Below, one piece after another: positions 14,411 to 57,096 of a stretch of 64,000 bases of DNA. Numbering within the stretch: the first letter of the stretch is position 1; each line of letters begins with the position of its first letter. The notes below the pieces were generated by a model. It had not been told where the DNA came from and did no database searches. It saw nothing but the letters and a program-made list of their open reading frames with translations. Where the stretch lies: contig BQJU01000038.1 in NCBI GenBank assembly GCA_021604865.1, positions 1 through 64,000 on the forward strand. Reading direction: 5' to 3'. Both the position numbers and the translations under genes were made by a program. This stretch comes from Saprospiraceae bacterium (GTDB lineage Bacteria > Bacteroidota > Bacteroidia > Chitinophagales > Saprospiraceae).

Positions 14411-14640
14411 AGCTTCATGTTTGGAGGCCAACCATACGCTTGCGCTGAAGCTTTCTCCGGGCGTCTGCGCCTTGCTTCGCCGTAGCTTCGCGAAGGCAGA
14501 GTAGGAGCATTGGCTGCATAGGATCAGTTTTTTAATGATACTTTCCCGACCTAGCGGGTTCCCTTCGGCGGGACAGGCTGTTACTTTTCTTGTCCGCTTC
14601 GGCTGAGCCGAGACGCTACAAAAGCCAACTTCCAACGAAG
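14411..14640. repeat. Dispersed MITE-like repeat, copy A
   Basis: It begins with CATGTTTGGAGGCCAACCAT (14416) and ends with CTACAAAAGCCAACTTCCAA, which is the reverse complement of the TTTGGAGGTGGGCTTTTGTAG end seen at 44383. The interior shares CTTGCTTCGCCGTAGCTTCG and AGGCAGAGTAGGAGCATTGG with copies at 33561 and 44377. It fills the gap between sialidase and esterase genes, and its end supplies the last codons and stop of the esterase gene. No transposase is encoded. Confidence 0.75.
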
Positions 14641-17068: not shown

Positions 17069-19768
17069 TTAAACGACAATTTTTTCACTCTTTTTCAAAG
17101 CGGTTGCATTTTTTAAAACCTGGTAGGTATACTGTTCTTTTTGAACACTGTTTCCTCCAAAAAGCAAACTGACGATATAACCGATAATTATACTCGAAGA
17201 CATACCCGTGAAGGCATACATCAACAAATGGATGTCGGTGTATTCCTTGATGAAATATTGTAAAAATCCACTTGCGATTAAGCCGGCAATAGCCCCGGTG
17301 CCATTGGCTTTTTTACTAAAAATGCCCAATAAGAAAATACCGCCCAATCCTCCGGTAAAAAGCCCAATGATCATATTAAATTGATCCCATAAGGACGAGA
17401 TACCCCAACTAGCCATGAGCAAGGCCAGACTTGTGCCCATTACACCAATTATAATGGTAATCTTACGGGCAAGTCTGAGGTATGATTTTTCCTGCTTAAG
17501 TGGTTTTAATCGGCGAAAAAAATCAGTAGTGATTACCGTTGAAACAGAGTTCATACTACTGTCCAAACTCGACATGGATGCTGCAAAAATGGCAGCGATA
17601 AGCAAACCCGAAACACCATTGGGCAAGCTATTGATGATATACCAGGGGAAAATGGCATCATTTCTTTCCATGATGGGATTTAGGGCTGCGGGATTCACTT
17701 TGTAATGTACAAATAGCAATGTTCCCAAGGAGAAGAAAATTAAGGCGGAAGGCAATGTAAGCCAGGCGCTTATCGTAATTCCCTTGGCAGCACTTTTTTC
17801 ATCTTTAGTGGTCAGGTAACGTTGGATAACCGTTTGATCACTACCATATTGCACCAGATTGGCGGCAAATCCACCGATGATAACAACCCATAGGGTAGGG
17901 GTGGCAAGGCTCAGATCTAAATCGAAAATTTGGGTCTTATTGTATTGGGTTATATAAGTGGAAATATCGTTGCTGTCCAAGCTAAAATAAAGTAAAGCAA
18001 GACTTAACAGTGAGCCTCCTAATAAAACCAGTACCTGCAAAACGTCCGTCCAGATCACTGCTTCGATCCCTCCTATAACGGTGTACAAAATACTCAAAAT
18101 GCCCATGGAGAGAATACAGAAATATACATCAATACCAGTGACCACAGAAAGAGCCAATGAGGGTAGCAATAAGACAATACCAAGTCTGCCTAATTGTAGG
18201 AAAACATACATTGAACTACCAATGAGCCTTGCAGCAAGATTGAAACGCAGTTCAAGATATTCGTAAGCAGTAGTCAGGTTGAACCTCCGGTAAAAGGGCA
18301 AAATGAAACGGATGATAAAAGGCGCCACCATGATGATGGTCATCAATAGGAAGAAATAGAGCCAATTGGTTGCAAAAGTCTTGGCAGGAATGGCCATAAA
18401 GGTGATCGCGCTCAATTGAGTGCCAAAAATACTCAGCCCGGCAGCCCACCACGGAATGCGATTTCCTCCTTTAAAGAAGTCGTCAGTACTGTGTTGATTT
18501 TTGGAAAAGACAAAACCCATGCCCACCATCAACAATAAATAGATCAGCAATATGGCGTAATTGAGGGTACCAAAGGAGGTTTTGTTTACAATATCGCCAG
18601 CCATTATATTAGGGGTGCGAATGCAGGGTGAAATTTCCCCTGAAGGGATTAAAATTTTATCGCCCCATTTTAAAGCGGTAGTTGTGACCTGGCTACCTTT
18701 TGGCAAGGCACTGATTTTTATCCACGTTTCCGTAATGGTATGAAAAGCCCATACTTCCTTGGAAAATCCGGAATGATTGATGAGAATGGAATCTCTTTCC
18801 TTTAGTAACGATGCATATTGATCACCTTCCTTTTCCAGTGCCAAATCTGCGCCCAATTGTTCAAGCCTGTTAAGTGTTTTTCCTTCAGCACCACCAAAAA
18901 GTAAAATATGGTTAGCGCCAATGGCAAGTCCGGTCCCGGCAGATATTGGCCATTCCTGTCCAGCCCCATTTTTATGCTGGCCAAGATTGGCCCATTGATT
19001 CGTTTTGGGATTATAAACATAAACATCTGAAAATAATTCGCTGGTGGCCTCCTCGCCTTTATACCGTCCTTTTATCAAATAGAAACAATCGTCTTCCCCA
19101 TTATTTTGTACCACGCCAACGGCATGCGTTCTGGAAGCGCCTTCCCATACAGGAAGTTTTTCCCAGCCCTGCTCAACTGCGGTCAGGTCCAAACTCCAAA
19201 AATATTTGCTATGGTCTCCCTCCCCGCTGGCCGCTATATAAATTTTATTGCTGATAATGCCACCTGACATATTTGCCAAAGGCACAGGTAGGGATGGTAA
19301 GTCTTCAATTTCAATCTCTTTTTGTTTTTCATCCCATTTCAAATAAAATACACTAGAAGATGGTTTGTCACCATTTGTGCCGCCTGCGCAAACCAATCCG
19401 TATGGAGTAGATACCGTCAGGCCATAAGCTATTTTTTGAGGCAGAATAAATTGTTTTTCCTCATACCATTTGTAGGTGTCATTGGCCAATCTTTCAAGGA
19501 TGAAAATATTTTTATGAAAAACCTTTTGCCCACCTTCCCAGGCCGGCCCATCTGGAAAATTCGCGCCACCTGCAATGATCAAAACATTGTTATGAATACC
19601 GGTAAAGGCTCCCGCTAAACCGGGTTGATTGGATTCTCCTTTTAATGGAGGAATAGTGGCCATTTCTGACCAATCAATATGGATAGGTGGCAGATGCTCA
19701 TTTTTACTTCCTTCAGCAAAACCAAAAGAAAAAGAGAAGACCGCAAACAGAAATAGAAATGCTCTCAT
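17069..19768 (-). CDS. Kelch mutarotase (NanM-like) fused to sodium:solute symporter
   Basis: 899 residues. A signal peptide (MRAFLFLFAVFSFSFGFAEG) leads into about 370 residues of Kelch-type repeats resembling the cyclically permuted mutarotase family related to NanM. From about 385 to 880 follows a sodium:solute symporter of the SSS family with some 13 hydrophobic helices, including the GGNRIPWWAAGLSIFGTQLS region typical of the first core helices. The fusion couples anomer conversion of released sialic acid in the periplasm to its sodium-driven uptake. It lies 6 bases after the epimerase gene and 11 bases before the lyase. The substrate assignment to sialic acid rests on these neighbours. 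Confidence 0.9.
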   Translation of the reverse strand: MRAFLFLFAVFSFSFGFAEGSKNEHLPPIHIDWSEMATIPPLKGESNQPGLAGAFTGIHNNVLIIAGGANFPDGPAWEGGQKVFHKNIFILERLANDTYKWYEEKQFILPQKIAYGLTVSTPYGLVCAGGTNGDKPSSSVFYLKWDEKQKEIEIEDLPSLPVPLANMSGGIISNKIYIAASGEGDHSKYFWSLDLTAVEQGWEKLPVWEGASRTHAVGVVQNNGEDDCFYLIKGRYKGEEATSELFSDVYVYNPKTNQWANLGQHKNGAGQEWPISAGTGLAIGANHILLFGGAEGKTLNRLEQLGADLALEKEGDQYASLLKERDSILINHSGFSKEVWAFHTITETWIKISALPKGSQVTTTALKWGDKILIPSGEISPCIRTPNIMAGDIVNKTSFGTLNYAILLIYLLLMVGMGFVFSKNQHSTDDFFKGGNRIPWWAAGLSIFGTQLSAITFMAIPAKTFATNWLYFFLLMTIIMVAPFIIRFILPFYRRFNLTTAYEYLELRFNLAARLIGSSMYVFLQLGRLGIVLLLPSLALSVVTGIDVYFCILSMGILSILYTVIGGIEAVIWTDVLQVLVLLGGSLLSLALLYFSLDSNDISTYITQYNKTQIFDLDLSLATPTLWVVIIGGFAANLVQYGSDQTVIQRYLTTKDEKSAAKGITISAWLTLPSALIFFSLGTLLFVHYKVNPAALNPIMERNDAIFPWYIINSLPNGVSGLLIAAIFAASMSSLDSSMNSVSTVITTDFFRRLKPLKQEKSYLRLARKITIIIGVMGTSLALLMASWGISSLWDQFNMIIGLFTGGLGGIFLLGIFSKKANGTGAIAGLIASGFLQYFIKEYTDIHLLMYAFTGMSSSIIIGYIVSLLFGGNSVQKEQYTYQVLKNATALKKSEKIVV

Positions 19769-19774
19769 ATGGTT

Positions 19775-20956
19775 TTATCTATTAAGATTTTCAATCGCTT
19801 TAAAATTTTTCCAACATTCAAATAATGCCCTGGGGAGATGAAAGCATCCTTTCCATTTTCCACCTTTAAGGGTCAACAATTTATTGCCCTCACGATTCAA
19901 GTAACCAAACCATTCTCCTTTTTCTCTATCGGGAAATCTTGCCCAGGTATAATGATGAACTTTTTCATACCATTCTTTTACATCATTGCGGCCGGTGAGC
20001 AGGTAAGCTCTTGACAAAGCCACCAAAGCTTCCAGGTGCACCCACCATAGTTTTTGGTCCCATTCCAATTGTTGAGGTGGCGCTCCTTTGCTATCCATGA
20101 AATAATAAATGCCACCATATTCTTTATCCCAGCTATGGTCCAGAATATGCAAACATAGGTCAGTCGTTTGGGTGATCAGTTCAGGGCGATTTAGCCTTTT
20201 GGCAATATCCATCAAAAACCACATCGCCTCTATGCCGTGTCCGGGATTGAGATGCCGACCTTCGAAGGTGTCCAGAAAACGTCCTTCAGTACCATTGTAT
20301 TCATGAATCAGTCCCGTTTGGGGATTGTAGTGTTTTGTAAGTATTTGTTGTACACAGTTTTCATAAATCTTTACGACCGCTTCTTTCGACAATAAGTCCT
20401 CCATCTCATAGGTCAGATAGGCCGTCATCATTGGTAAACCAAAAGATTCCAGAGGACGAACACCCGTGGATTTTTCAAATTTCCCTTTGGGGTTGTCCAA
20501 CCTATCCATGTATTTTTGATAGGTGGTTAACGCAATAGCCAGGGACTCCTGATCGCCAGATGCTTTTGCATACTCATAGAAACCTAATGCCGCAAAACAA
20601 TCTGAAAAAATATTAAAAGCATGGGTCAATGGTTTGCCTTCACGGGTCAAAGAGAAGTAAAAATTACCCTGCTCATCACGGCCGTGTTTTTTTAAAAAAC
20701 GAATGCCATTTTCGGCAATCTGTAACCACTTCTCGTTTTTTTCAAAACGGTTGTACAACATGGAAAAGGTCCAGATTTGCCGTCCCTGCAGCCACATGAA
20801 TTTATCGGTATCATACACCTTTCCTGTTTGATCCAGACAGGTGAAATACCCTCCAAATTCCTTATCTATAGAATGGTTTTCCCAAAAGGGGATAACACTT
20901 TCAAAGAGCTCTTTTTTATATTCAGAGCGGTAAGCTCTTGTCAATTCCGGTTTCAT
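19775..20956 (-). CDS. N-acylglucosamine 2-epimerase (AGE/RenBP) family
   Basis: 393 residues, full length for the AGE family with its (alpha/alpha)6 barrel. Recognisable stretches include FMWLQGRQIWTFS near the N-terminus, RHLNPGHGIEAMWFL with conserved histidine around 238, and EWDQKLWWVHLEAL. The reaction is interconversion of N-acetylmannosamine and N-acetylglucosamine. Placed between a sulfatase (4 bases upstream) and the sialic-acid symporter (6 bases downstream), and with the lyase in the same operon, it fits the step that turns ManNAc from the lyase into GlcNAc. No separate NanE or kinase gene is visible in the window. Confidence 0.88.
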   Translation of the reverse strand: MKPELTRAYRSEYKKELFESVIPFWENHSIDKEFGGYFTCLDQTGKVYDTDKFMWLQGRQIWTFSMLYNRFEKNEKWLQIAENGIRFLKKHGRDEQGNFYFSLTREGKPLTHAFNIFSDCFAALGFYEYAKASGDQESLAIALTTYQKYMDRLDNPKGKFEKSTGVRPLESFGLPMMTAYLTYEMEDLLSKEAVVKIYENCVQQILTKHYNPQTGLIHEYNGTEGRFLDTFEGRHLNPGHGIEAMWFLMDIAKRLNRPELITQTTDLCLHILDHSWDKEYGGIYYFMDSKGAPPQQLEWDQKLWWVHLEALVALSRAYLLTGRNDVKEWYEKVHHYTWARFPDREKGEWFGYLNREGNKLLTLKGGKWKGCFHLPRALFECWKNFKAIENLNR

Positions 20957-20960: not shown

Positions 20961-22484
20961 TTATTGTTTACCTAGTGCTGACCGGTCAAAATCAGCCACC
21001 CATTTTTCTAACTCCAGCTGCATTTCTTGTTTAACTTCAGGAAAAGCATCAGTAACATCGACGGTCTCTGCTTCGTCTTTTTTTAGATCATATAATTGAT
21101 AAGAGGCCCCGCCATCCACGCTTAATAACTTGAATGCTTCACCACTCATCGCAAATTGCCAGTTGTTGGCATTCTTCCGCCAATCTTTTCCCCGAAGTGG
21201 TGAAATGAAAAATATCGGTGCTTCTCTGAATTCTTTGGTTCCATCGAGAATGGGCAGTACATTTTCACCATCTATAGCATGGTTGTTTTCCAATTGAAGG
21301 GCAGCCAGCACGGTAGGATAGATATCCATAGTAGATATTGGTTGAGAAATGCTTTTTGCCTGAGGAAATCGTTTGGGTAAAGAAACAAATGCAGGCACCC
21401 GAATACCGCCTTCATATAAGGTCCCTTTCTTGCCTCTATATGGGCCTGCGGAATTAAAATCATGGATATAGGAAGGCCCATTATCGCTATTGAACCAGAG
21501 GAGGGTATTGTCGAAAATGCCCAGGCTTTTTAATTCATCTTCCAGTCTACCTACCTGTGCATCCATGGCGGAAATGCTGCCATACCAATGTTCTTCTTCA
21601 ATAGAAAGATTTAAGGAATCATAGATAGCGCGATGTTCGTTTCCCGCAGCGATTGGAGAATGAACAGCATGAAACCAGATAACGGCAAAAAAGGGCTTTT
21701 TATCAGCGGCCTGCTGTTTAATAAAATTTAAAGCCTGATCCATAATGATTCTGGAATCATCACCTTCCAAACCTTTTGTCACCTTTTGGCCTTCCCCTGT
21801 CCAGTAAGAACAGTACCAGGGATAAACTCCGGGAAGGTCGCTTGTTTCTCCTTTTTCAACGGCCCTGTCCATCAGCATTTTGTAATCAGGGCCTGGTTGG
21901 GGAAGCCTGAATTGGCCGGCACCCCAAACGGTGGGGTTATATAATGGCACCATCGTTTCAGTAGAAAAACAATGCTCAAACCCATTTTCCCAGGGAGGGC
22001 TATAAAATTTTTCATTTTCTGGAAGGCCACCACGGGTACCATCTCTTACTGTTCTTGAAAGTGTACCAGCGTGCCATTTTCCAAAATGTCCGGTGGCAAA
22101 ACCATGCTGCTTTAATTTTTCTGCAAGGGTCGTTTCTTCCAGCGGTATGGCTCCGGTGTCAGCCCATGGAACACCCACCCGGCAAGGTGTCTTTCCGGTC
22201 AGGCAGCTAGCTCTGGTAGGAGAACAAACGGGCGCCGCTGCGTAGAAACGATTCAGTCGTATATTGGCAGCTGCCAGTTGGTCTAACCGGGGAGTTTTTA
22301 CAATAGCATTTCCATTATAAGCTACATCCCCCCAGCCTTGATCATCAGACATCACCAAAATGACATTGGTGGGATTTTGAGTGACCTTTTCTGGCTTGGC
22401 ATCCGAGCAACCTATAAAACTAAACCCTTTCACCAGGAGAAGCATCAACAGGAACCATCGATAGGTTAATTTAGATTTCATCAA
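20961..22484 (-). CDS. Sulfatase (S1 family), lipoprotein
   Basis: 507 residues with a lipoprotein signal (FIGC26) and the alkaline-phosphatase-like sulfatase fold. The formylglycine motif C87-S-P-T-R91 (VCSPTRASCLTG) is intact. Metal-binding Asp residues appear in VMSDDQGWGD (46-53) and NSDNGPSY. The first gene of the minus-strand operon, divergent from susC, it probably removes sulfate esters from host or algal glycans. Activity would need a formylglycine-generating enzyme or anaerobic maturase encoded elsewhere; the SUMF-domain protein at 58250 is a GldJ-type protein and probably not that enzyme. The exact sugar position is unknown. Confidence 0.9.
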   Translation of the reverse strand: MMKSKLTYRWFLLMLLLVKGFSFIGCSDAKPEKVTQNPTNVILVMSDDQGWGDVAYNGNAIVKTPRLDQLAAANIRLNRFYAAAPVCSPTRASCLTGKTPCRVGVPWADTGAIPLEETTLAEKLKQHGFATGHFGKWHAGTLSRTVRDGTRGGLPENEKFYSPPWENGFEHCFSTETMVPLYNPTVWGAGQFRLPQPGPDYKMLMDRAVEKGETSDLPGVYPWYCSYWTGEGQKVTKGLEGDDSRIIMDQALNFIKQQAADKKPFFAVIWFHAVHSPIAAGNEHRAIYDSLNLSIEEEHWYGSISAMDAQVGRLEDELKSLGIFDNTLLWFNSDNGPSYIHDFNSAGPYRGKKGTLYEGGIRVPAFVSLPKRFPQAKSISQPISTMDIYPTVLAALQLENNHAIDGENVLPILDGTKEFREAPIFFISPLRGKDWRKNANNWQFAMSGEAFKLLSVDGGASYQLYDLKKDEAETVDVTDAFPEVKQEMQLELEKWVADFDRSALGKQ

Positions 22485-22824: not shown

Positions 22825-25800
22825 ATGAAAGAATATTCTACTACCTTTTTAAAAAGGGTATTATTCCTGGCAGTCTTGGTTGCAGGAATATTAAGTACGC
22901 CAACAGCAGTCTCAGGCTTTAGCTTGCCGCATGAGCGGAACCTGGATGAAATCACGGTAAAAGGCACTGTTACTGATGGGGAAGTAACCCTTATTGGAGT
23001 ATCCATAATAGTAAAGGGTACTTCAATAGGAACCGTTACTGATGCAGATGGCAACTTTGAAATCATTGCCCCCGGTCCTGACGAGGTTTTAGTCTTTTCC
23101 TATATAGGTTATACCACGGTGGAAGTCCCAATAAATGGAAGAAGTGAAATTACCCTCAAAATGGAATCTTCTTCTTCTGTATTGGATGAGGTTGTTGTGA
23201 TTGGTTATGGTGAGCAATCCAGAACAACATTAACAACTTCTGTTTCAAAGCTGGATGACAGAGTATTAGACAATATTCCCTTTTCTAATGCCGCCTCTGC
23301 ACTACAAGGAACGGTATCGGGCTTAAGAGTACAAACAACAACAGGGCAACCTGGTTCGGCTCCTTCCGTTATCCTCAGAGGCGGTACTTCCATCAATGAC
23401 CCGAATGGGGCGTCACCATTATATATTATAGATGGCGTGATCCGGGACAATATCAATGATCTGAACCCAAATGATATTGAATCACTACAAGTCCTGAAAG
23501 ATGCAGCGTCAACCTCTATTTATGGAGCAAGAGGTTCAAATGGTGTCATCATTGTCACCACAAAAACAGGGAAATTTGGTGAATCAAGAATTTCCTACAA
23601 TTATTCTATGGGTGCCTCAAATTTGGCAGAGCGTTATGATCTGGTAAATGCAAGAGACTACCTTTATTACGGCCGTCTTGGCGTAGCTGCCACGGGAGAA
23701 CGTCACCCGGAGCGGTTATCAAGATTAGATTTACCAGTAGGCTATGGTATAGGCAATGATCTGACTAACAATACTGGCTTTACGCCTCAGTACCTGACGC
23801 CGGAAAATGAACACAAGCTAAATGAAGGCTGGGAAAGCATGCCTGACCCGATTGATCCTTCCCAAACCATTATTTTTAAAAATACTGACTGGCAGGATGT
23901 TTTATTCCGTACCGGCATTACACACGACCATTATTTGTCTTTTTCTGGTGGCGGCGAGAATTCCAGCTTTGATTTGGGAGTTGGTTATCAGGACAATGAA
24001 GGTATTGGCATTGGTACAGGATATCAGCGATTTACGGGAAAACTGAATGGAGACCTTCGGGTGCGAGATAACGTCACCATCTTTGGAAAAGTGAGTTTTT
24101 CTAATTCAAAGGACGAATCTGTTTATAATACGAATCAATTGTTTCAACGGGCATTGGGTTTGCCTCCGACAGCAAAATATACTTTTGAAGATGGCACTTT
24201 TGCTCCCGGACAAAACAGAAGTATCGGAAACCCGGCCTACCACCTAAATAATCTGGACAGGTCCCGAGACCTCAAAAGATTGACGATGGTAATTGGTGGA
24301 AACTGGGAAATTGTAGAAGGATTGACCTTTGAACCTTATGCTGCATTTTATATGTCGCAGGAGAGAATTGACCAGTTTCAAAAATCCTATTTTAATAATG
24401 CTACTCAGTTTATTGATTCCCGCGACGCCATCGGTTTTTTCTCAGACTATCAGACTCAGCAATATGAAGGGGTGTTGACTTATTCCAAGAGTTTTAATAA
24501 TGCCCACAATTTTCAAGTAAAAGGCGGAGTATCTTATTACAATCGAGGAGCCTACGAATTAGAAGCGAGAGGAAGAGGCGCTGCATCTGATCTGATTTCC
24601 ACTTTGAATGCAGCAGCAGAACCAACAAGTGTATCCAGTGAATTAACCAACCAAAGAATTATCGGCTATTTTGGTAGAGTAACCTATGATTATCAACGCA
24701 AATATTTGTTCTCTGCCAGTGCGCGTTACGATGGTGCTTCCAACCTTGGAGACAACAACAAATGGGGATTCTTTCCCGGCGTTTCTGCAGGATGGAATGT
24801 CCACCGGGAACAGTTTTGGGATGCCATGCCCGATATGGTCAGCACTCTGAAGTTGAGGGCTAGTTATGGGGTGAATGGTAATTTGGGTAACCTTTCTGAT
24901 TTTCATGCACAAGGACAATATAGCGTTGGCCAGATATACAATGGCATAGCTGCCGTACAAAATACCCGCCTGGCCAATCAGGACCTGCAATGGGAAGAAT
25001 CTAAAACTTTTGACTTCGGTTTTGATTTAGGCATCCTGAATAACCGCATCAATATCTTATTTGATTTCTATCGTAGAGAGACCAATAACCTCCTGACTAA
25101 CCTGGACTTACCACAAAATACGGGCTTCTCCAGCATTTTGACCAACCTTGGATCACTGGAAAACAAGGGCGTAGAGCTGGATATCAATGCTAATATTATC
25201 AATACACAAGGCGGATTTCAATGGGATGTTGGTTTTAATGCGGCTTACAACAAAAATAAGATCCTGAAATTGCCTGAAAATGGAAATGAGAATAACCGTA
25301 TCGGTGGTTTTGAAGTGTTTGACCCAGGTTCAGGAAAATATATCTGGGTAGCAGGATTGCAGGAAGGACAAGCTATCGGAGAATTATATACCTACCAAAA
25401 ACTAGGTGTTTATGCAACAGATGAAGAAGCCGCTGCCGGTCCAATAGATTTATTGGTACCAGGTGCAGACAAATCCAAACTGGGTGGTGATGTTATTTTT
25501 CTGGATGTAGACGGTAATGGAGAGATTGATACCAGAGATCGGGTATATGCCGGAAATATCTATCCAGACTGGACCGGTGGGTTTTCCAATTTCTTTAGCT
25601 ATAAAGGTTTTGGATTGACTATTCGGACTGACTTTGCAATTGGGCATACCATTCGCAATAGAACAAATGCCACTTTTATGGGACAATTCCAAGGAGACAT
25701 TGGCATCCTGAATGATATTAAGAATTCCTGGGAAAACCAAGGAGATATAACCGACATACCAAGATACTATTGGGCTGACCAGCTGGCTCAAAACAGTCAG

Positions 25801-26088
25801 TTTAGAAATGGTGGTCCTAGTGATGCCGCAGGGAATATTTTCTTTAACTCTGACTACCACGAAAAGGGAGATTTCATCAATTTACGCGAGGTGACCTTGA
25901 GCTATAATTTTGCCGGACTTGGCTTCCTTGAAAAAATAAAGATTGCTAGCATCCGCATTTTTGCTACCGGTAATAATCTGAAATATTTCACCAATTATAA
26001 TGGCCTGATGCCCGAAGAGGGTGGTTTGGACAACGGTAGGTATCCCAATCCAAGAGTCTATACTTTTGGCGCAAATGTGACCTTTTAA
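22825..26088 (+). CDS. SusC/RagA-type TonB-dependent outer-membrane transporter
   Basis: 1087 residues, typical length for the family. A signal peptide is followed by a carboxypeptidase-regulatory-like domain (about 42-115, KGTVTD...GVSIIVKGT...GTVTDADGNF), the TonB box/plug with DEVVVIGYG at about 121-130 and the SusC signature SLQVLKDAASTSIYGARGSNGVI near 215-240, then a long beta-barrel ending in FGANVTF. Together with the SusD gene 55 bases downstream it forms the glycan import pair. The substrate is inferred from neighbours: sialylated and sulfated oligosaccharides. Confidence 0.96.
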   Translation: MKEYSTTFLKRVLFLAVLVAGILSTPTAVSGFSLPHERNLDEITVKGTVTDGEVTLIGVSIIVKGTSIGTVTDADGNFEIIAPGPDEVLVFSYIGYTTVEVPINGRSEITLKMESSSSVLDEVVVIGYGEQSRTTLTTSVSKLDDRVLDNIPFSNAASALQGTVSGLRVQTTTGQPGSAPSVILRGGTSINDPNGASPLYIIDGVIRDNINDLNPNDIESLQVLKDAASTSIYGARGSNGVIIVTTKTGKFGESRISYNYSMGASNLAERYDLVNARDYLYYGRLGVAATGERHPERLSRLDLPVGYGIGNDLTNNTGFTPQYLTPENEHKLNEGWESMPDPIDPSQTIIFKNTDWQDVLFRTGITHDHYLSFSGGGENSSFDLGVGYQDNEGIGIGTGYQRFTGKLNGDLRVRDNVTIFGKVSFSNSKDESVYNTNQLFQRALGLPPTAKYTFEDGTFAPGQNRSIGNPAYHLNNLDRSRDLKRLTMVIGGNWEIVEGLTFEPYAAFYMSQERIDQFQKSYFNNATQFIDSRDAIGFFSDYQTQQYEGVLTYSKSFNNAHNFQVKGGVSYYNRGAYELEARGRGAASDLISTLNAAAEPTSVSSELTNQRIIGYFGRVTYDYQRKYLFSASARYDGASNLGDNNKWGFFPGVSAGWNVHREQFWDAMPDMVSTLKLRASYGVNGNLGNLSDFHAQGQYSVGQIYNGIAAVQNTRLANQDLQWEESKTFDFGFDLGILNNRINILFDFYRRETNNLLTNLDLPQNTGFSSILTNLGSLENKGVELDINANIINTQGGFQWDVGFNAAYNKNKILKLPENGNENNRIGGFEVFDPGSGKYIWVAGLQEGQAIGELYTYQKLGVYATDEEAAAGPIDLLVPGADKSKLGGDVIFLDVDGNGEIDTRDRVYAGNIYPDWTGGFSNFFSYKGFGLTIRTDFAIGHTIRNRTNATFMGQFQGDIGILNDIKNSWENQGDITDIPRYYWADQLAQNSQFRNGGPSDAAGNIFFNSDYHEKGDFINLREVTLSYNFAGLGFLEKIKIASIRIFATGNNLKYFTNYNGLMPEEGGLDNGRYPNPRVYTFGANVTF

Positions 26089-26142: not shown

Positions 26143-27618
26143 ATGAAAAAAACACTAGCAATAATAATAATGGTTTGCACGGGGATGTTCTTCAATTCCT
26201 GTACAGAAGACCTTGAATTAGCACCCACAAGTATTATCTCAGTCAACTCCTTCTGGAGTACGGAAGATGACGCCAAAGGAGGACTTTATGGCATGTATAC
26301 CCGGATGCGATCCCAATGTTATGACAATTTATTTAGTTGGGGCGGGGCTCGTGCAGAGCTTTTAAGTTACGGACTTCAGGCTTCAGAGGGTTTAGAACGT
26401 TATTTTGAAAACACACTTGACCCAATCAGTGCAGGACCAGATTGGAAAGGCCTGTACACCGTAATCCACGATGCCAATTTGTTATTGAAAAATGTACCTG
26501 ATATTGACTTTAGAGATGAAAAAGTAAAAAACGAAACACTTGCCCAGGCACATGCCATGCGGGCTTATGTATATTTCATTATTGCGAGAACCTGGGGTGG
26601 AGCACCGATTGTAACCGCTCCTTCAGAGGGTTATGATGCTGAGGTTATTTTCAAACCTCGTGCCTCAATAAGTGAAGTGTACACTTTAATAAAGCAGGAT
26701 ATTGACATGGCCATTTCCCTTTTTCCTGATGATAGTTTTTCTCCAGGAAGAAGTATCTGGTCCCGGCCTGCCGTGAATGCCCTGAAAGGCGATGTATATC
26801 TGTGGACGGCTAAAACCCAGGGTGGTGGAAATGCAGACTTGCAAACGGCATTGACTGCCCTTCAAGCGGTAAAAACTGGAGATGTCGCTCTGTTGCCTGC
26901 TTATGACGACGTGTTCAGGTATTCCAATAAAGGCAATTCCGAAGTCTTGATGGCCATGCATCTCGAAGACTTAGAAGCTAGCAATATGTATAGCGATCTG
27001 ATGTACATCAGAAATGACCAGATTCCCGCAAATGCTACACAAGAATCCAAGGACCTGTTGGGTACAGGAGGAGGCCTGAATCGTTGGGCACCAGCAGAAG
27101 GCTTTAGAGATCAATTTGCCGATGACGATAGTCGTAAAGACGCTACTTTTGTAGCTATGTTCACCGATGATGGCACAGGTCCTGCTTATTATGCTTCTGC
27201 TACCTTGAAATACCGTGGGTTTGTTGATGCGGGATCTAGAAAGTTTTTGGATGATATCATTTTATACCGATATGCTGATGTATTATTGATGATCGCTGAG
27301 GCTAAAAACGGACTGGGACAAGACCCTACGGCAGAGATGAACGCCGTTCGGGAAAGAGCCTATGGTGCAAATTTTGCCGGTCATGAGTTCGTCTCTGGAT
27401 CACAAGCAGATAACGACGATGCCATTTTGCAGGAAAGGTTGTTTGAATTGTCCTTCGAAGCTAAAAGATGGTGGGATCTGGTACGGTTTGATAAAGCCTT
27501 TGAATTGGTTCCTTCGTTAAATGGAAGAGAAAATGATCGCTATTTGTTGTTATTTCCAATACCCATTACAACACTTAGCTTGAACTCCAGTCTGGTTCAA
27601 AACCCAGGATATAATTAG
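26143..27618 (+). CDS. SusD/RagB-type surface glycan-binding lipoprotein
   Basis: 491 residues with a lipoprotein signal (FFNSC20), then the SusD-like N-terminal region and the RagB/SusD C-terminal domain ending with the typical DRYLLLFPIPITTLSLNSSL and QNPGYN. TPR-like helices with LAQAHAMRAYVYFIIARTWGGAP (about 138-160) are conserved in the family. It lies 55 bases downstream of the SusC gene and forms the lid of the SusC channel. An intrinsic-terminator-like hairpin lies about 205 bases downstream, so the sulfatase genes may be partly separated transcriptionally. Confidence 0.95.
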   Translation: MKKTLAIIIMVCTGMFFNSCTEDLELAPTSIISVNSFWSTEDDAKGGLYGMYTRMRSQCYDNLFSWGGARAELLSYGLQASEGLERYFENTLDPISAGPDWKGLYTVIHDANLLLKNVPDIDFRDEKVKNETLAQAHAMRAYVYFIIARTWGGAPIVTAPSEGYDAEVIFKPRASISEVYTLIKQDIDMAISLFPDDSFSPGRSIWSRPAVNALKGDVYLWTAKTQGGGNADLQTALTALQAVKTGDVALLPAYDDVFRYSNKGNSEVLMAMHLEDLEASNMYSDLMYIRNDQIPANATQESKDLLGTGGGLNRWAPAEGFRDQFADDDSRKDATFVAMFTDDGTGPAYYASATLKYRGFVDAGSRKFLDDIILYRYADVLLMIAEAKNGLGQDPTAEMNAVRERAYGANFAGHEFVSGSQADNDDAILQERLFELSFEAKRWWDLVRFDKAFELVPSLNGRENDRYLLLFPIPITTLSLNSSLVQNPGYN

Positions 27619-27918: not shown

Positions 27919-29370
27919 ATGCCAAAACCTACTAACCTATTTTGTTACTGGCTGCTGTCTGTTTTTATAATGATTGGTTCTTGTACCAGTACCAACCTGC
28001 AAGATGTAAGGAGGTTAAATGGTTCATCTCCCAACTTCCTCATCATTCTCGCTGATGACCTGGGGTATGGCGATCTGGGATGTTTTGGCAACAAAATCAT
28101 TAAAACACCAAACCTTGACCAACTGGCCCGACAAGGTGTACTTTATACAGATTGTTATGCTTCTGCGCCTATGTGCTCGCCATCACGGGCAGGATTATTG
28201 ACCGGAAGGGTGCCTTACCGCACGGGTATTTACGATTGGATTGCACCCGATTCGCTGATGTATTTACCTCGAAATGAACACACTATTGCTACATTGTTAA
28301 AAGAACAAAATTACGCTACCAGTCTGTTTGGAAAATGGCATTTAAATGGCTCATTTGATCCTTCTATCCAAACACAACCCCAAGACCACGGATTTGATTA
28401 TTGGTATGCAACCCAATATAGTCCCGACCATAAAGACCCCAAAGGATTTTATAGAAATGGCAAACCTGCGGAACAACCCGAAGGTTATTCCTGTCAAATA
28501 GTGGCTCATGAAGCCGCCAATTGGTTGAAAAATATCCGGGATAAAGGAAAGCCCTTTTTCCAGTTTGTCGCTTTTCATGAACCCCACGAACCTATCATGT
28601 CTCCGCCTGCCTTAGTAAAACAGTACCAGAAATACGGTATAAAGGCAGAATATTATGCAAATGTAACCAATCTGGATAACGCAATCGGCAAGATTTTAAA
28701 GACCCTGGAGGCGGAAGGAATAGCTGACAATACCTTCGTCATTTTCACCTCTGACAATGGTCCTGCAGCATATACACCAACCGGCTATTTTAATAAATCG
28801 CACGGATCAGCAGCACCGCTTCGTGGTTACAAAAGGCATCAGTTTGAAGGGGGCATCAGGGTACCTGGCATCTTACGTTGGCCAAAAAGAACCAAAGCTG
28901 GAACAACAGAAAATACACCTATTTGTAATATAGATTTCTTGCCTACGTTATGCCACCTGGCAGGAGTTAAACTTCCTGTAGATCTTAAAATTGACGGCAC
29001 CGATATTTCGCCTCTTTTTGTTGGAAAAGAAATAAATCGGCCGACACCACTCCACTGGCATTTTTATGATCCCTGGGGTGGCCCGCAATCGCTGCTGAGG
29101 ACCGACAAGTGGATTTTAGGCGCAACGTGGGATGTAGGCGATTTTCATAAAAAAGGTCGATTTTATCCCGCTGAAGAATTGCCGATTATTAAAAAATCCC
29201 GGTTAGCTGAATTTTCACTTTACAATATTCGAAATGACCTTCATCAGGACCAGGATATAGCCAAACAATATCCTGAAGTGGTGCGGGATTTATCGCGACA
29301 ATTAATTCAATTGCATCAGGATGTGATGCAGGAAGCGCCATTGCCACAAGAGTTAAAAACACCAAAATAG
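27919..29370 (+). CDS. Sulfatase (S1 family), lipoprotein
   Basis: 483 residues when started at the ATG at 27919, which puts a lipoprotein signal (MIGSC22) at the N-terminus; an in-frame upstream start at 27850 would bury it. The formylglycine motif is C86-S-P-S-R90 (MCSPSRAGLLTG). Metal-site residues appear in LADDLGYGDLG and in FTSDNGPAAY. It lies in the plus-strand enzyme arm, 8 bases before the sulfatase-sialidase fusion. It probably removes a sulfate ester, at a different position or sugar from the other two sulfatases. Exact specificity is unknown. Confidence 0.9.
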   Translation: MPKPTNLFCYWLLSVFIMIGSCTSTNLQDVRRLNGSSPNFLIILADDLGYGDLGCFGNKIIKTPNLDQLARQGVLYTDCYASAPMCSPSRAGLLTGRVPYRTGIYDWIAPDSLMYLPRNEHTIATLLKEQNYATSLFGKWHLNGSFDPSIQTQPQDHGFDYWYATQYSPDHKDPKGFYRNGKPAEQPEGYSCQIVAHEAANWLKNIRDKGKPFFQFVAFHEPHEPIMSPPALVKQYQKYGIKAEYYANVTNLDNAIGKILKTLEAEGIADNTFVIFTSDNGPAAYTPTGYFNKSHGSAAPLRGYKRHQFEGGIRVPGILRWPKRTKAGTTENTPICNIDFLPTLCHLAGVKLPVDLKIDGTDISPLFVGKEINRPTPLHWHFYDPWGGPQSLLRTDKWILGATWDVGDFHKKGRFYPAEELPIIKKSRLAEFSLYNIRNDLHQDQDIAKQYPEVVRDLSRQLIQLHQDVMQEAPLPQELKTPK

Positions 29371-29377: not shown

Positions 29378-32005
29378 ATGAAATACCCATTATTTCAAAG
29401 AAACGGTTCTTTTTATAAGCTTTTGCTTCTAACTTGTATCCTCTTAACTTGCCTTCCTTATGCTAATCAGGCTCAAAAAAATGAAGAGACTACTCCTCCA
29501 AATATTTTACTCATTGTTTCTGAAGATAACGGCCCTGATCTAGGCTGTTATGGTGTCGAAGCCGTCAAAAGCCCTCACCTCGATCGTCTGGCGGAAGAGG
29601 GTGTTTTATTTGAAAATGCCTTTGTGACTTATTCGGTCTGCAGCCCTTCACGGGGTACCCTGTTTACGGGGTTGTATCCACATCAGAATGGACAGATTGG
29701 ACTGGCCACTCATAAATTCAGGATGCATGATGATTTAAAAACTTTACCCGTTTATTTGAAAGAAGCAGGTTATCGTACGGGGTGTTTGGGGAAAATACAT
29801 GTCAATCCTGAAACCCTCGTTCCATTTGACTTTCATCCTATCAAAAGCAGCAATTTTGCTAAAAAGAAACTGCCGGATTATGCAAAAGAGGCGGCAAAAT
29901 TTATCAATCAATCTGATTCTGCCTTTTTTCTGATGGTCAACTTCCCGGATGCGCATTTTCCTTTACAAAGACAGGTGGAAGGCATGCCGGCAAACCCTAT
30001 TGATGGCAAAGATTTGCAGCAGAGTCTACCTTTTGTTGGGGCCGATAGTGAGCGTTTGCGGGAATTTACAGCCAACTATTACAACAGCATGATGCGTCTG
30101 GATGAGTCAGTAGGCATGCTGCTCGATAGCCTTAATGCTTCGGGTAAACGGCGAGAGACTATCATCATTTACCTGGGAGATCACGGCGCTCAATTTTCGA
30201 GAGGGAAATGCAGCAATTATGAAGCGGGACTAAGGGTGCCTTTTATCGTTAATTGGCCGGGAAAAATCGAAGGCGGCCGAAGAAACGAGGCGTTGGTCTC
30301 CTCCATTGATCTAATGCCGACTATTTTGGAGCTGGCGGACGTGGAGATGCCAAATGAACTTCCTGGTATTTCACTTTTGCCAAATTTGAAAAACAAGGAG
30401 GCCAAATCGGATCGCCAATATATTTTTGCTGGAGGCAATGGCTCTACCTCCTTGCTCTATTTCCCCAGGCGCAGCATACGTGATGAACGGTATAAATTGA
30501 TCAACAACCTTTTATCCGATAGAGAAAATCCGAAATTTCGTTTTTATGCTGACCACCACAACCAACATTTTGCGGCAGGCACTACAGAAGCAGAAATTGC
30601 TGCTGCTCCGGAAAATATACAAGAGGCCTATGCCTGTTGGAAATCACCGCCACCTTTTGAATTGTATGATTTAAAAAATGATCCGTTTGAATTTAATAAT
30701 CTGATCGATGAGCAAACACACCATGCGATTTTTGAACGACTAAAAATGGCTTTGGAAAATTGGCAGGAAGCAACACAGGATCCATTTCGCAAACCGGAAA
30801 TCCTAGCAAAATTCAACGCTGAAATCGACGAAGTAAACCAAAAATACCCCAACCACACCTACGCTAAGAATCCCAACTTCGAATGGTCCTATCTGGATTA
30901 TTTTAGAGAAAATAAGGTATTGCAGCAAACGGATCTTTTTGTTGGTGGCGAAGATGGCATTGCCAATTATAGAATTCCTGCCCTGGTGACAACGACTAAA
31001 GGTACGCTTCTGGCGGCCTGTGATGCCCGGGTAGATCGAAGAGGCGACTTGCCCAACAACATTGATCTCGCATTGCGGCGAAGTACAGATAATGGAAAAA
31101 CCTGGTCAAAACCCAAAATCATTATCGATTATCCAGGACAAGAAGGTGGCGGAGATCCGGCCATGTTGGTGGATCAGGAGACTGGTTTGATCTGGCTCTT
31201 TTTTGTCTACGGTGCTGAGGGAATTGGCATCAATCAATCCAAACAAGGTTTTGGCAAAGATACGACGCAACAATTGATGCTGATCCATAGTACAGATGAT
31301 GGTTTAACCTGGTCAGAACCCCGAAACATCACCAAGGAGGTGAAAAAGGAAGACTGGTACGGCATCTTTTTCGCTTCAGGCCGCGGCCTACAGTTGAGGT
31401 CGGGACGATTAATGGTAAACCTGATGGTGAAAAAAGAATTTGGTACCAGCAAACAGGATCATGCCTATATAGCCTATAGCGATGACCATGGTGAAACCTG
31501 GCAAACCTCAGCTTCTGCCGGCGATAAAATGGGTGAAAGCAAGTCCGTAGAACTCGATGATGGTTCGGTGATGATCAATATGCGTAGCAAACACAAGCGG
31601 CACCACCGGGCGATCAATATGTCAAAAGATGGTGGTAAAACCTGGGGCGAGTATTCCCACGAAAGTGGCTTAATAGAACCTACCTGTAATGCCAGCATCA
31701 TCAGATATACTTCCGTCAAAGATGGCTTTGAGAAGAGTCGCCTCTTATTTTCAAACCCCGCCGATGAAAATAAACGACAAAATATGGCGGTACGGATCAG
31801 CTATGATGAAGGCAAAACCTGGTCGCCTCCAAAAGTCATTCATTCTGGCCCAGCAGCCTATTCTTCCTTAACTGTTTTAGCCGATGGCTCCATTGGTTTA
31901 TTTTATGAAAGAGGCGATCTTAGGGCCGATGAAAAAATTACTTTTGCCAGGTTTACCTTGGAGTGGTTGACGGATGGAAAAGATAAATTGTCGAAGAAAT
32001 ACTAA
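29378..32005 (+). CDS. Bifunctional sulfatase-sialidase fusion
   Basis: 875 residues in one uninterrupted frame. After a signal peptide (about 1-32) comes a complete sulfatase domain (about 38-475) with the formylglycine motif C88-S-P-S-R92, the metal-site segment VSEDNGPDLG and LGDHGAQF near 267-273. After a short linker (480-515) a GH33-type sialidase domain runs to the end (about 515-870), with YRIP at 531-534, CDAR at 548-551 and Asp-boxes STDNGKTW, STDDGLTW, SDDHGETW, SKDGGKTW and SYDEGKTW. Both halves keep their hallmark catalytic motifs. A joint action on sulfated, sialylated chains, such as sulfated sialic acids or sialyl-sulfo-glycans, is the natural inference. It lies 8 bases after a sulfatase and 1 base before a sialate O-acetylesterase gene. 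Confidence 0.92.
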   Translation: MKYPLFQRNGSFYKLLLLTCILLTCLPYANQAQKNEETTPPNILLIVSEDNGPDLGCYGVEAVKSPHLDRLAEEGVLFENAFVTYSVCSPSRGTLFTGLYPHQNGQIGLATHKFRMHDDLKTLPVYLKEAGYRTGCLGKIHVNPETLVPFDFHPIKSSNFAKKKLPDYAKEAAKFINQSDSAFFLMVNFPDAHFPLQRQVEGMPANPIDGKDLQQSLPFVGADSERLREFTANYYNSMMRLDESVGMLLDSLNASGKRRETIIIYLGDHGAQFSRGKCSNYEAGLRVPFIVNWPGKIEGGRRNEALVSSIDLMPTILELADVEMPNELPGISLLPNLKNKEAKSDRQYIFAGGNGSTSLLYFPRRSIRDERYKLINNLLSDRENPKFRFYADHHNQHFAAGTTEAEIAAAPENIQEAYACWKSPPPFELYDLKNDPFEFNNLIDEQTHHAIFERLKMALENWQEATQDPFRKPEILAKFNAEIDEVNQKYPNHTYAKNPNFEWSYLDYFRENKVLQQTDLFVGGEDGIANYRIPALVTTTKGTLLAACDARVDRRGDLPNNIDLALRRSTDNGKTWSKPKIIIDYPGQEGGGDPAMLVDQETGLIWLFFVYGAEGIGINQSKQGFGKDTTQQLMLIHSTDDGLTWSEPRNITKEVKKEDWYGIFFASGRGLQLRSGRLMVNLMVKKEFGTSKQDHAYIAYSDDHGETWQTSASAGDKMGESKSVELDDGSVMINMRSKHKRHHRAINMSKDGGKTWGEYSHESGLIEPTCNASIIRYTSVKDGFEKSRLLFSNPADENKRQNMAVRISYDEGKTWSPPKVIHSGPAAYSSLTVLADGSIGLFYERGDLRADEKITFARFTLEWLTDGKDKLSKKY

Positions 32006-32006: not shown

Positions 32007-33560
32007 ATGAAGATTCAATTAAAATTTTACGGCTTCATCCTGTTTTTGGGATTGATTTTGCCAATAAATAGCAAGGCGCAACTCCACTTACCCAATCTAT
32101 TCAGTGACCACATGGTGCTACAAAGGCATCTGCCCATTCCGGTATGGGGTACTGCCTCAGCAGGCAGTGAAGTGGTGGTTCGTTTTGAAAAAGTTGAACT
32201 AAAAACGCAGGTTGATGCCGATGGCAACTGGAGGGTGAGTTTTCCGGCAAGGAGCGAAGGCGGCCCCTTTGAATTATCCATTTTGGGTGATGGCAAATCC
32301 ATTGTATTCAAAGATATTTTAGTAGGAGAAGTCTGGCTTTGTTCTGGCCAATCAAATATGGAATGGTCCTTAAAAAGGACTGCTGAAGGAGAAAGGGAGA
32401 TCCCGAATGCCAATAACCCCAATATCCGACTTTTTCATCTAAAGAAAAAGCACGATATGTATAAGTCGCCCTTTACACAGGAACAATTGGAAAGCTTTAC
32501 TGCTGGCGATTTTTTTTACCCGGCCAAATGGGAAAAATGTTCGCCAGAAACCGCTGCAGTGTTCTCAGGCGTGGGCTATTTCTTTGGAAAGACCCTACAA
32601 GATTCCTTACAGATCCCGATTGGACTGATTCAAAATGCAGTTGGTGGTTCTCCGATCCAATCCTGGATCAGTGAAGAAGCGTTTGCAAGCCATCCACAAC
32701 TGAATTATTTTGTAAAATTTCGGGAAGGAGGCAATTGGTTGGATTTGGAGAATATCAATCCCTGGCTAAAGGAACGTGCCCTACAAAATTGGGCCGATTG
32801 GGTTAACCAAGAAAAGAGTGGAGAACTACCAGGGCACCCATTTGCTCCAACCTATTTATTTGAAAGTGCAATTCAACCGCTACAAGATTATCCTCTGCGA
32901 GGAGTGATCTGGTATCAGGGAGAATCCAATGCGACTAATCCGGAAAATTATGCTGCATTGTTTGAATTAATGGTGAAAAATTGGCGCCAGACCTGGCAGC
33001 TGGATTTGCCTTTTTATTTTATCCAACTACCCAAAATTGGTACCCGTAATCTCTGGCCAGAATTTCGGGAAGCTCAGGAAAAGTGCCTGGCCATACAAAA
33101 TACGGGCATGGTGGTTGCCATTGATGGCGGACATCCAACAAATGTGCATCCCAAAGAAAAAGAAGGCATTTCACAACGCCTGGCCAATCTTGCCCTGGCC
33201 AAAACTTATGGCAAAATGCTTTTGGCAGAAAGCCCTATGTTGTCTACTTTTGAATGGCAGAAAAAGGATCGTCAAATTGTGCTTAATTTTAAGCAAACTT
33301 ACGGTGGTTTGAAGATTAGTAGGGGAGAAGTGCCCACTGGCTTTTTGCTTCAAGGATATTTGGAACAAGGCAGCCTGGAAGCCTTTATCATACCAGAAAA
33401 GATAAGGATAGAAAACGAAAAAATCATCCTCAATTATCCCGAAAATTTTCTACCAGTAAATGTAAAATACGCCTGGGCTCCAGCTCCTGATAATAACATA
33501 GTTAATAGCGAAAATTTGCCCTTGGCACCGTTTAAGATACTCTTGGGCGGTCGGGATTAA
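32007..33560 (+). CDS. Sialate O-acetylesterase
   Basis: 517 residues from the ATG at 32007, just after the stop of the fusion gene. An upstream in-frame ATG inside the fusion gene was rejected because only this start gives an N-terminal signal peptide (FILFLGLILPINSKAQ). The catalytic serine motif is SGQSNMEW and a second block YQGESNAT is present. The N-terminal beta domain begins LPNLFSDHMVLQRHLPIPVWG, as in Bacteroidota sialate O-acetylesterases. It removes O-acetyl groups that block sialidases, so it complements the sialidases encoded on both sides. Confidence 0.92.
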   Translation: MKIQLKFYGFILFLGLILPINSKAQLHLPNLFSDHMVLQRHLPIPVWGTASAGSEVVVRFEKVELKTQVDADGNWRVSFPARSEGGPFELSILGDGKSIVFKDILVGEVWLCSGQSNMEWSLKRTAEGEREIPNANNPNIRLFHLKKKHDMYKSPFTQEQLESFTAGDFFYPAKWEKCSPETAAVFSGVGYFFGKTLQDSLQIPIGLIQNAVGGSPIQSWISEEAFASHPQLNYFVKFREGGNWLDLENINPWLKERALQNWADWVNQEKSGELPGHPFAPTYLFESAIQPLQDYPLRGVIWYQGESNATNPENYAALFELMVKNWRQTWQLDLPFYFIQLPKIGTRNLWPEFREAQEKCLAIQNTGMVVAIDGGHPTNVHPKEKEGISQRLANLALAKTYGKMLLAESPMLSTFEWQKKDRQIVLNFKQTYGGLKISRGEVPTGFLLQGYLEQGSLEAFIIPEKIRIENEKIILNYPENFLPVNVKYAWAPAPDNNIVNSENLPLAPFKILLGGRD

Positions 33561-33806: not shown

Positions 33807-34574
33807 ATGCAAATAAGACCATACATCCTGGCCGAAACCAACTGGAAAACCGTTAAGGATACTGATTACAAAGTAGCCCTACTTCCTTGGGGAGCCACCG
33901 AAGCGCACAATTACCACATGCCCTACGCCACCGACAATTACGAATCGGAATATGTCGCTGCGGAATCGGCACGCCAGGCATGGGAAAATGGTGCAAAAGT
34001 CATCGTTTTACCGGGCATCCCTTTTGGGGTTAATACTGGGCAACTCGATGTCAAACTATGCATGAATATAAATCCAAGCACCCAATATGCAATTCTTAAG
34101 GATATTGCTGATGTATTGCTTCGGCATGATATTCAGAAATTGGTCATCATCAATTCCCATGGCGGCAATAATTTTAAAAACATGATCCGGGAATTGTCGA
34201 TTAATTTTCCGGAATTATTCACGTGTAGCATAAATTGGTGGGCCATCGGAAATTCGAAAGACTATTTTGATGAACCAGGTGATCATGCCGGGGAACTTGA
34301 AACCAGTGCCATCATGCATATTCGGCCCGATCTGGTTTTACCATTGTCAGAAGCAGGTCCTGGCATTGACCGCAAATATAAAATTAAAGGTTTAAAAGAT
34401 GGATGGGCTACTTCCCAACGGCAATGGACCAAGGTGACCGCAGATACGGGCGTGGGTAATCCGGCTCATTCTACAGCTGAAAAAGGCAAAAGGTTTTTGG
34501 AAATGACCACGCTAGAAATTAGCCGTTTTTTAATAGAATTGGAACAAACTAGCCTTGACAACCTATATGAATAA
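33807..34574 (+). CDS. Creatininase-family amidohydrolase
   Basis: 255 residues. Metal-binding residues of the creatininase fold are visible: E and H in WGATEAHNYHMPYATDNY (about 28-45), H in INSHGGNN (about 115) and E in GELETSAIMH. The family includes creatinine amidohydrolase, FAPy deformylase and amide hydrolases of several pathways, so the name does not fix a substrate. It has no signal peptide and is the last plus-strand gene of the sialoglycan enzyme arm, separated from the acetylesterase by repeat copy B. A role in opening or deacylating an amide of a modified amino sugar is conceivable but unproven. Confidence 0.8.
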   Translation: MQIRPYILAETNWKTVKDTDYKVALLPWGATEAHNYHMPYATDNYESEYVAAESARQAWENGAKVIVLPGIPFGVNTGQLDVKLCMNINPSTQYAILKDIADVLLRHDIQKLVIINSHGGNNFKNMIRELSINFPELFTCSINWWAIGNSKDYFDEPGDHAGELETSAIMHIRPDLVLPLSEAGPGIDRKYKIKGLKDGWATSQRQWTKVTADTGVGNPAHSTAEKGKRFLEMTTLEISRFLIELEQTSLDNLYE

Positions 34575-56800: not shown

Positions 56801-57096
56801 ATCTTGCACGAGTTAAATTTGAGGTAGAGAGCAGAAAGATCACAATGAAATTTGTTATAGGAACGTTAAGATAATACAGGTATTGTTTTTTTAACTTACC
56901 AAGATTCAAAAAGGTCGCCTATTTAACTTTTACTGCTTGCATTTATGGTGACTGCATTACATTTTCGCGCAAACTACTCTATATTAACGAACAACCGATA
57001 AAAGAATTTACTACATTTAAGCCTGATCGTTTAATACTGTTGAGTATGTATCAGTACTCGGGAAAATTGATTGTTCATCATTTGATACCAGGATCT

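Follow-up and report, generated by a model that had tools for sequence, protein, structure and literature searches.

The fused gene

The window analysed here comprises positions 1 to 64,000 of the forward strand of contig BQJU01000038.1 (GenBank assembly GCA_021604865.1), from a Saprospiraceae bacterium of the phylum Bacteroidota whose genome of 7.97 Mb is held in 161 contigs. It contains a gene joining a sulfatase to a glycoside hydrolase family 33 (GH33) sialidase, such that one predicted protein is a candidate for both the removal of sulfate and the cutting of sialic acid. The gene was first noticed in the nucleotide sequence alone, and this original prediction described a single uninterrupted frame of 875 residues; translation of 29378-32005 (+) gave exactly such a frame, followed by a stop codon. 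The fusion and its halves are as follows.

29378..32005, +: fused sulfatase (S1)-GH33 sialidase, 875 residues; inspection by eye suggests a signal peptide at the N-terminus and the lack of a canonical lipobox
29492..30916, +: sulfatase half, residues ~39-513, with a sulfamidase/S1_8-like fold and the formylglycine site C88 (Pfam, sequence and fold comparison)
30923..32002, +: sialidase half, residues ~516-875, a GH33 catalytic propeller without an extra N-terminal domain (Pfam, alignment, fold)

Both domains, which had been claimed to be complete, were recovered by the Pfam search that the original prediction had proposed. Sulfatase (PF00884) matched residues 41-322 (3.5e-49, 168.2 bits against a curated cut-off of 25), accompanied by SGSH_C (PF16347, 4.1e-24), and BNR_2 (PF13088) matched residues 543-840 (5.9e-34). 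The sulfatase half has the CxPSR maturation motif, as C88-S-P-S-R92 at residues 88-92, and in alignment carries E49, D50, C88, R92, K139, H141, H193, D268, H269 and K277, which we take to be the sulfatase catalytic set. The sialidase half has YRIP at residues 531-534 and five Asp boxes, each an exact S-x-D-x-G-x-T-W, at 569, 638, 701, 749 and 808. When aligned to the M. viridifaciens sialidase (1eur) it keeps all six catalytic positions, presumably an arginine triad (R532, R736, R800), an aspartate acid/base (D557) and a tyrosine/glutamate pair (Y828/E720). Judged by these alignments, both catalytic signatures appear intact, as had been stated.

When solved structures were searched by sequence, the best match of the sulfatase half was sulfamidase (SGSH; 1.3e-54) and the sialidase half matched 1eur (5.4e-63), scores at which the assignment of the fusion is not attributable to chance. 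The predicted structure of the full protein had a mean predicted local distance difference test score (pLDDT) of 82.5 and a predicted template modelling score (pTM) of 0.63; the structural matches listed were GH33 sialidases, with 8feb of P. gingivalis at Z 45.0 and a root-mean-square deviation (rmsd) of 2.2 over 345 residues. As sialidases filled this list, the sulfatase half was folded and compared separately (pLDDT 89.9, pTM 0.92), and its best match was sulfamidase (4miv/4mhx; Z 41.0, rmsd 2.4-2.5 over 423-424 residues), followed by S1_8A (9bb9; Z 37.1). The N-terminal half thus combines a PF00884 score above the cut-off with the fold, CxPSR motif and catalytic residues of an S1 (type I, formylglycine) sulfatase, and the C-terminal half combines the catalytic residues, YRIP and Asp boxes of GH33 with its propeller fold. 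The S1_8 label used here reflects the nearest solved chains, SGSH and S1_8A, rather than SulfAtlas subfamily models.

Although SGSH (S1_8-type) is the best solved relative by both sequence and fold, sharing a CxPSR-type site and most catalytic positions, the clade containing the fused sulfatase differs from it in replacing the first metal aspartate by E49 and an asparagine by H269, and in having R275, K277 and E282 where SGSH has serine, arginine and tryptophan; R275 and E282 are invariant in the clade rows. The window locus also lacks a glucosamine N-sulfate context, and its sulfatase is fused to a sialidase. Similarly related in sequence and fold are S1_8A, S1_8B and S1_8C of a lambda-carrageenan locus (9bb9, 9bbd, 9bba), the first of which shares glutamate, histidine, arginine and lysine with the fusion at positions 49, 269, 275 and 277. 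These enzymes are reported to carry out exo-desulfation before or after a glycosidase, but act on galactose-2-sulfate of carrageenan and are encoded by separate genes, with sialic-acid genes going unmentioned in the accessible part of that report (PMC12549532). The sialidase half resembles the GH33 enzymes of M. viridifaciens (1eur) and P. gingivalis (PG_0352) in sequence, in fold (Z 44-45), in its catalytic residues and in its Asp boxes, but follows a sulfatase immediately in the same chain; it lacks the BNR_assoc_N domain seen in the other, stand-alone sialidase of the locus. That a glycosidase and an S1 sulfatase can share one polypeptide has a precedent in FA22250 of Formosa agariphila (6hr5), which differs in pairing a GH78 rhamnosidase, rather than a sialidase, with a sulfatase module of another subfamily (S1_25). 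The fusion brings known domains together in a new way and probably has a new specificity.

The junction falls at approximately residues 513-516, where, in the alignment of sulfatase rows, the sulfatase stops about where its stand-alone relatives stop and the sialidase begins immediately. No remnant signal peptide was found at this point, tested stretches within residues 495-530 having negative mean hydropathy as against +1.1 to +1.3 at the N-terminus. Two secreted genes merged by a sequencing error would have left a second signal peptide, so its absence argues against an artefact. That assembly or sequencing joined two genes might be suggested by the draft state of the assembly, with its 161 contigs, but the frame is the same throughout without a stop, and independent fusions exist in other genomes (locus L064 described below, and L065, with a tail matching L064 up to its contig end); this explanation was accordingly rejected as exceedingly improbable.

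Genes around the fusion

The other genes of the locus are listed below in order of position.

12723..14357, -: second, stand-alone GH33 sialidase with a BNR_assoc_N domain, all six catalytic columns kept
14616..15293, -: SGNH/GDSL esterase (domain scan)
15305..16090, -: PhyH-family dioxygenase, recurrent in related loci (domain scan)
16146..17057, -: N-acetylneuraminate lyase-like (NanA-like) protein (PRK04147, 163.3 bits, below its cut-off of 281)
17069..19768, -: NanM-type mutarotase fused to a sodium:solute symporter (Pfam), putatively for sialic acid uptake
19775..20956, -: N-acylglucosamine 2-epimerase family protein (Pfam), putatively for the ManNAc step
20961..22484, -: third sulfatase (sulfC; Pfam), with relatives adjoining GH33 in the Arenibacter/Maribacter loci and in NORP150 (L059)
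22825..26088, +: SusC/RagA TonB-linked outer-membrane transporter (domain-model match)
26143..27618, +: SusD homologue (top NCBIfam model NanU, 303.8 bits, below its cut-off of 425)
27919..29370, +: second sulfatase (sulfB; Pfam), start picked by eye, with close relatives adjoining S1 in Arenibacter, Maribacter and NORP150
32007..33560, +: SASA-family sialate O-acetylesterase (PF03629, 2.4e-23), 1 base downstream of the fusion
33807..34574, +: creatininase-family hydrolase (Pfam), found in Arenibacter/Maribacter loci too

The sialate O-acetylesterase had been predicted to lie one base beyond the fusion, and does: the TAA of the fusion ends at 32005 and the esterase ATG, with a signal-peptide-like start, is at 32007; the longest open reading frame (ORF) of the esterase frame begins at 31974, overlapping the fusion. 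Bacteroidota nan loci with a NanU-type SusD carry SusC/SusD, a sialidase, SASA, NanM, NanA and an epimerase. The window resembles them in having these components but adds three sulfatases, a PhyH dioxygenase and the fusion. By their domain assignments, the genes around the fusion constitute a putative full sialic-acid catabolism locus. No GH2, GH20 or GH29 was present in the Pfam tables of the window proteins scanned, which cover part of the ORFs.

A further BNR_2 protein is encoded just beyond the operon at 35126-36394 (-), and is followed by an AraC regulator and a hybrid two-component regulator at 36709-41765. At 57040-59755 (+), a PorP/SprF gene precedes one for a protein with an FGE-sulfatase domain, which we take to be GldK-like and probably a lipoprotein of gliding/type IX secretion rather than an enzyme that truly matures sulfatases.

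Distribution of the fusion and linkage to sialidases

Among 199 genomes of the same family, including that of the window, no second copy of the exact fusion was listed (up to four candidates were scored per genome, at E up to 1e-60), and the nearest sulfatases, at 47-59% identity, are stand-alone genes. Same-family loci differ in their surroundings: in three (L039, L042, L044) S1 is 32-961 bp away from a strong sialidase and close to NanA and NanM, one (L045) has GH33 at 1.5 kb, also with NanA and NanM, four (L038, L040, L041, L043) have only divergent BNR proteins and no strong GH33 near S1, and one (L046) has no sialic-acid genes around it. When 395 genomes of the phylum were searched, with up to two candidates scored per genome, only the window's own genome and one other (G085) matched at 1e-90, and here too the exact fusion was not listed a second time.

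In Arenibacter and Maribacter ulvicola the window locus is nearly whole, with S1 and sialidase as separate genes. The order is SusC-SusD-sulfB-S1, NanM-symporter, epimerase and PhyH, and further along there are creatininase, sulfC, a second GH33, SGNH and SASA, together with a fused-type sialidase at a distance of 8-10 kb from S1; NanA is present in the L135 stretch of this type of locus. Two genes that are kept separate in this locus elsewhere are thus fused in the window. The sialidase tree, in which the window's sialidase half fell in no starred set, is too weak to say whether the fused-type sialidase of Arenibacter/Maribacter was the donor.

More distant relatives were sought by scanning the genome_contigs collection (84,980 species) with an alignment of the sulfatase half. 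The best 80 of the 325 relatives found, holding 82 S1 domains, were analysed; the probes for neighbouring genes were mainly proteins of the window, and the flanks extended to 10 kb or the contig end. Within this sample, Bacteroidota, Planctomycetota and Verrucomicrobiota all have members of the S1 clade that are joined to sialidases, in several domain orders, or encoded next to them. S1 precedes GH33 or BNR in the window, L064, L094 and L090, GH33 precedes S1 in L086, and L093, L097, L104, L106 and L115 have the order second sulfatase-GH33-SASA-S1 (of these five, Pfam was run on L106). All but the window and L064 belong to Planctomycetota/Verrucomicrobiota. The proteins with the longest order, of 2,146-2,206 residues, hold sulfatase, GH33, SASA and S1 in one chain.

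Intermediate arrangements were also found. S1 is a separate gene overlapping that for a second-sulfatase-GH33-SASA protein in L083, L085 and L092; the second sulfatase neighbours S1 in L042 and L045 and is the ORF directly upstream in L113; and these two sulfatase types are joined in a chain without sialidase in L103 and L132. Three loci (L110, L117, L120) start at the edge of a contig, and L101 is divided into two ORFs. The Bacteroidota locus L064 encodes an S1-sialidase protein of 889 residues, and directly behind it, at L064:12524-15235, is a protein of 903 residues in which a sulfatase of a different subfamily is fused to another sialidase; L065 leaves its contig within an L064-like tail. 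The sequences of these proteins indicate that sulfatase-sialidase fusions arose elsewhere too, beyond the exact type in the window. The original suspicion that this was not a standard architecture therefore stands for the exact fusion, unique in the genomes searched, but not for sulfatase-sialidase fusions at large, and the locus itself recurs unfused in Arenibacter/Maribacter. In addition, sialidases of 595-597 residues are fused to an SGNH esterase domain at L066:1936-3723 and L138:10602-12395, and the acid/base aspartate column holds serine in the sialidase domains of the 889-residue protein of L064, L060:2843 and L082:7520.

A survey of co-occurrence had been proposed along with the prediction. 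Sialidase is fused to 14 of the 82 S1 domains (nine in Planctomycetota, four in Verrucomicrobiota, one in Bacteroidota) and lies within 10 kb of a further 18 unfused ones; one is fused to SASA only, with GH33 664 bp away, and six have NanA/NanM but no GH33. Another 16 are accompanied only by divergent sialidase-like BNR proteins, many of which align the catalytic glutamate and arginine. Where such proteins adjoin S1, as in Cyclobacterium and Membranihabitans among others, the sialidase glutamate, one or two of the arginines and often the tyrosine are matched in alignment, and this branch may serve another ulosonic acid. At least two are found around S1 in L067, L070, L072, L074, L075, L078 and L084, most keeping Glu/Arg.

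On a quick, unrooted tree of 90 rows, from which four duplicate loci and two sulfatase fragments were omitted, the fused-to-sialidase state (15 rows including the window) required 7 changes, as against 14.0 in shuffles, none of 500 being as low. The rows L115_521 and L046 form long branches. Rooting with an SGSH and S1_8A outgroup failed, because SGSH was placed within the tree, next to another long branch, and no root is claimed. No residue separating sialidase-linked from unlinked members of the clade passed the threshold.

Linkage was compared with that of other sulfatases in two samples, using the first 150 matches listed in each. The Bacteroidota control consisted of 12 genomes of named isolates, picked after the labels were known but covering linked, weakly linked and unlinked loci alike, and its matches were 113 sulfatases and 37 sialidases. 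GH33 lay within 10 kb of 6/17 clade sulfatases and 2/96 others among these matches (Fisher p 1.1e-4), one of the latter two being S1's own neighbour. The second sample, eight Planctomycetota/Verrucomicrobiota genomes chosen for fused or linked S1 and hence biased, had 9/13 clade members fused to or within 10 kb of GH33, compared with 2/120 other sulfatases among the matches listed. The genetic link to sialidase thus exceeds that of other sulfatases, and is strong for some S1 branches, but not for all.

The sugar carrying the sulfate

The original prediction held that sulfate and sialic acid lie close together on one substrate, and offered as alternatives sulfated sialic acids, such as those of marine invertebrates, and sialyl-sulfo mucin chains. 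Such a shared substrate is favoured by a clade fused to or beside sialidases in three phyla, with the reservation that some branches are unlinked; of the two substrates, sulfated sialic acid is the better supported and mucin the less so. With slightly better than even confidence, the fusion is proposed to be secreted and to act on sulfated sialoglycans as an exo-enzyme in two steps, in which the sulfatase would unmask a sulfated sialic acid for the sialidase. We infer that sialic acid, and not its neighbouring sugar, carries the sulfate, that cleavage comes after desulfation and that the protein is secreted. Following conversion of C88 to formylglycine, the N-terminal sulfatase would take the sulfate ester (8-O or 9-O) off the terminal sialic acid itself, and the tethered GH33 domain would then cut the alpha-ketosidic bond of the unmasked residue. 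The neighbouring SASA esterase would strip O-acetyl groups, and NanM/transporter, NanA and epimerase would catabolise the freed sialic acid.

Candidate substrates are recorded: 8-O- and 9-O-sulfated sialic acids have been described in sea urchin, including gametes, and the 8-O form also in vertebrates, where the sialate O-sulfotransferases WSCD1/2 are reported to sulfate C8 and where medaka lacking WSCD1 or WSCD2 did not grow to adults (PMC9304399, PMC9630641, as far as accessible). According to the accessible text of a 2023 review, its authors knew of no report of a microbial sulfatase acting on sulfated sialic acid (PMC10017367), and no later sialate sulfatase or described sulfatase-sialidase fusion was found in the literature searched, which left subscription papers mostly outside. 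If the proposal is true, the S1 clade would supply this missing sialate sulfatase, a mapping tool for sulfated sialic acids and a way to test how microbes overcome sialic acid sulfation. The clade is also a case in which enzymes that would strip one sugar have been fused repeatedly, in swapped orders.

The evidence on the position of the sulfate comes from the company that S1 keeps. Its recurring partners are sialidase, SASA, NanA, NanM, epimerase and PhyH. Around 24 S1 genes in 16 genomes, some on short contigs, none of 108 typed positions of GH20 or GH2 was within 10 kb, the nearest being 12.3 kb away (G112). GH20 (PF00728) matched 9 of the 16 genomes, namely all nine from Bacteroidota including the window's own, and had no match in the seven Planctomycetota/Verrucomicrobiota genomes with fusions or a fusion-neighbour, whose completeness is unstated; GH2 (PF02836) matched five of those seven, strongly only in G603. 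A search of 12 genomes for GH29 gave matches in six, of which three of the five other than the window's own were weak only. No glycosidase family was found among the first 25 of 132 neighbour families, which cover 73 of 145 otherwise unassigned neighbours. A bacterium without a hexosaminidase would gain little by desulfating the N-acetylglucosamine or galactose beneath a sialic acid but would profit from releasing the sialic acid itself, and sulfate on sialic acid is thus favoured.

A less probable alternative, to which perhaps one chance in four might be assigned, is that the sulfatase acts on the sugar next to sialic acid, such as the 6-sulfated galactose, N-acetylglucosamine or N-acetylgalactosamine of sialyl-sulfo mucins or N-glycans, with the sialidase working first or the reverse. 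Gut sulfatases active on colonic mucin O-glycans are reported to target 3S-Gal or 6S-GlcNAc (PMC10017367, in part), the window's own and eight other Bacteroidota genomes have GH20 elsewhere, and three sulfatases in one locus suggest more than one sulfated position. Against this stand the nature of the recurring partners, the lack of glycosidases in the neighbour families covered, and the absence of GH20/GH2 near S1 and of GH20 from the seven Planctomycetota/Verrucomicrobiota genomes; mucin or N-glycan desulfation was consequently lowered as a main role. The GH33 pocket holds the glycerol side chain of sialic acid, and a sulfate on that chain should hinder cleavage. This counts against a further, rather unlikely alternative in which sulfated sialic acid is released first and the sulfatase then acts on the free sugar, the fusion merely holding the enzymes together, although S1_8A, the next solved relative after sulfamidase, is reported to enclose a monosaccharide, galactose-2-sulfate (PMC12549532, in part). 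It is more doubtful still that the fusion is incidental, its enzymes serving different parts of a heterogeneous sulfated glycoconjugate with one half perhaps dispensable: restriction of the exact fusion to one genome and the existence of unlinked clade members would fit, but the same clade has been fused repeatedly, in different orders and phyla.

A number of observations weigh against the proposed desulfation of sialic acid before its cleavage. The exact fusion is known from one genome only, and the link to sialidases or sialic-acid genes is not kept over the whole S1 clade. No sialic-acid genes were found in flanks totalling at least 12 kb for 15 of the 82 S1 domains, or for 12 further domains on shorter contigs, so that the survey left 27 without a link. 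The members from Latescibacterota have none nearby, as probed with the window's proteins, and in the tree their branch seems unlinked, as does part of the Planctomycetota/Verrucomicrobiota branch. In the Bacteroidota control the contrast is weaker within 5 kb (2/17 clade sulfatases against 0/96 others among the matches listed, p 0.02), and among the Planctomycetota/Verrucomicrobiota clade members not behind the choice of genome only 1/5 is near GH33. Given the two additional sulfatases in the locus, processing may extend to other sulfated sugars, and characterised S1_8 enzymes are reported to act on glucosamine or galactose by removing N- or 2-O-sulfate (PMC10154612, PMC12549532, each in part).

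A broader idea, tentative and held at appreciably less than even confidence, is that the S1 clade and the N-terminal second sulfatase family of Planctomycetota contain the first sialate O-sulfatases, each for a different position (for example 8-O and 9-O), and that the proteins of about 2,200 residues are one-piece machines which would strip sulfate and acetyl groups and then release sialic acid. Were this so, sulfated sialic acids would be a common food source for aquatic bacteria.

The PhyH-family dioxygenase is encoded within 10 kb of S1 in 15 of the 82 entries for clade loci, sometimes directly beside it; loci with this gene include the window, L041, L043, L055-L058, L086, L115, L116, L123 and L130. 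Such a dioxygenase might act on a modified sialic acid, for instance at an O-methyl group.

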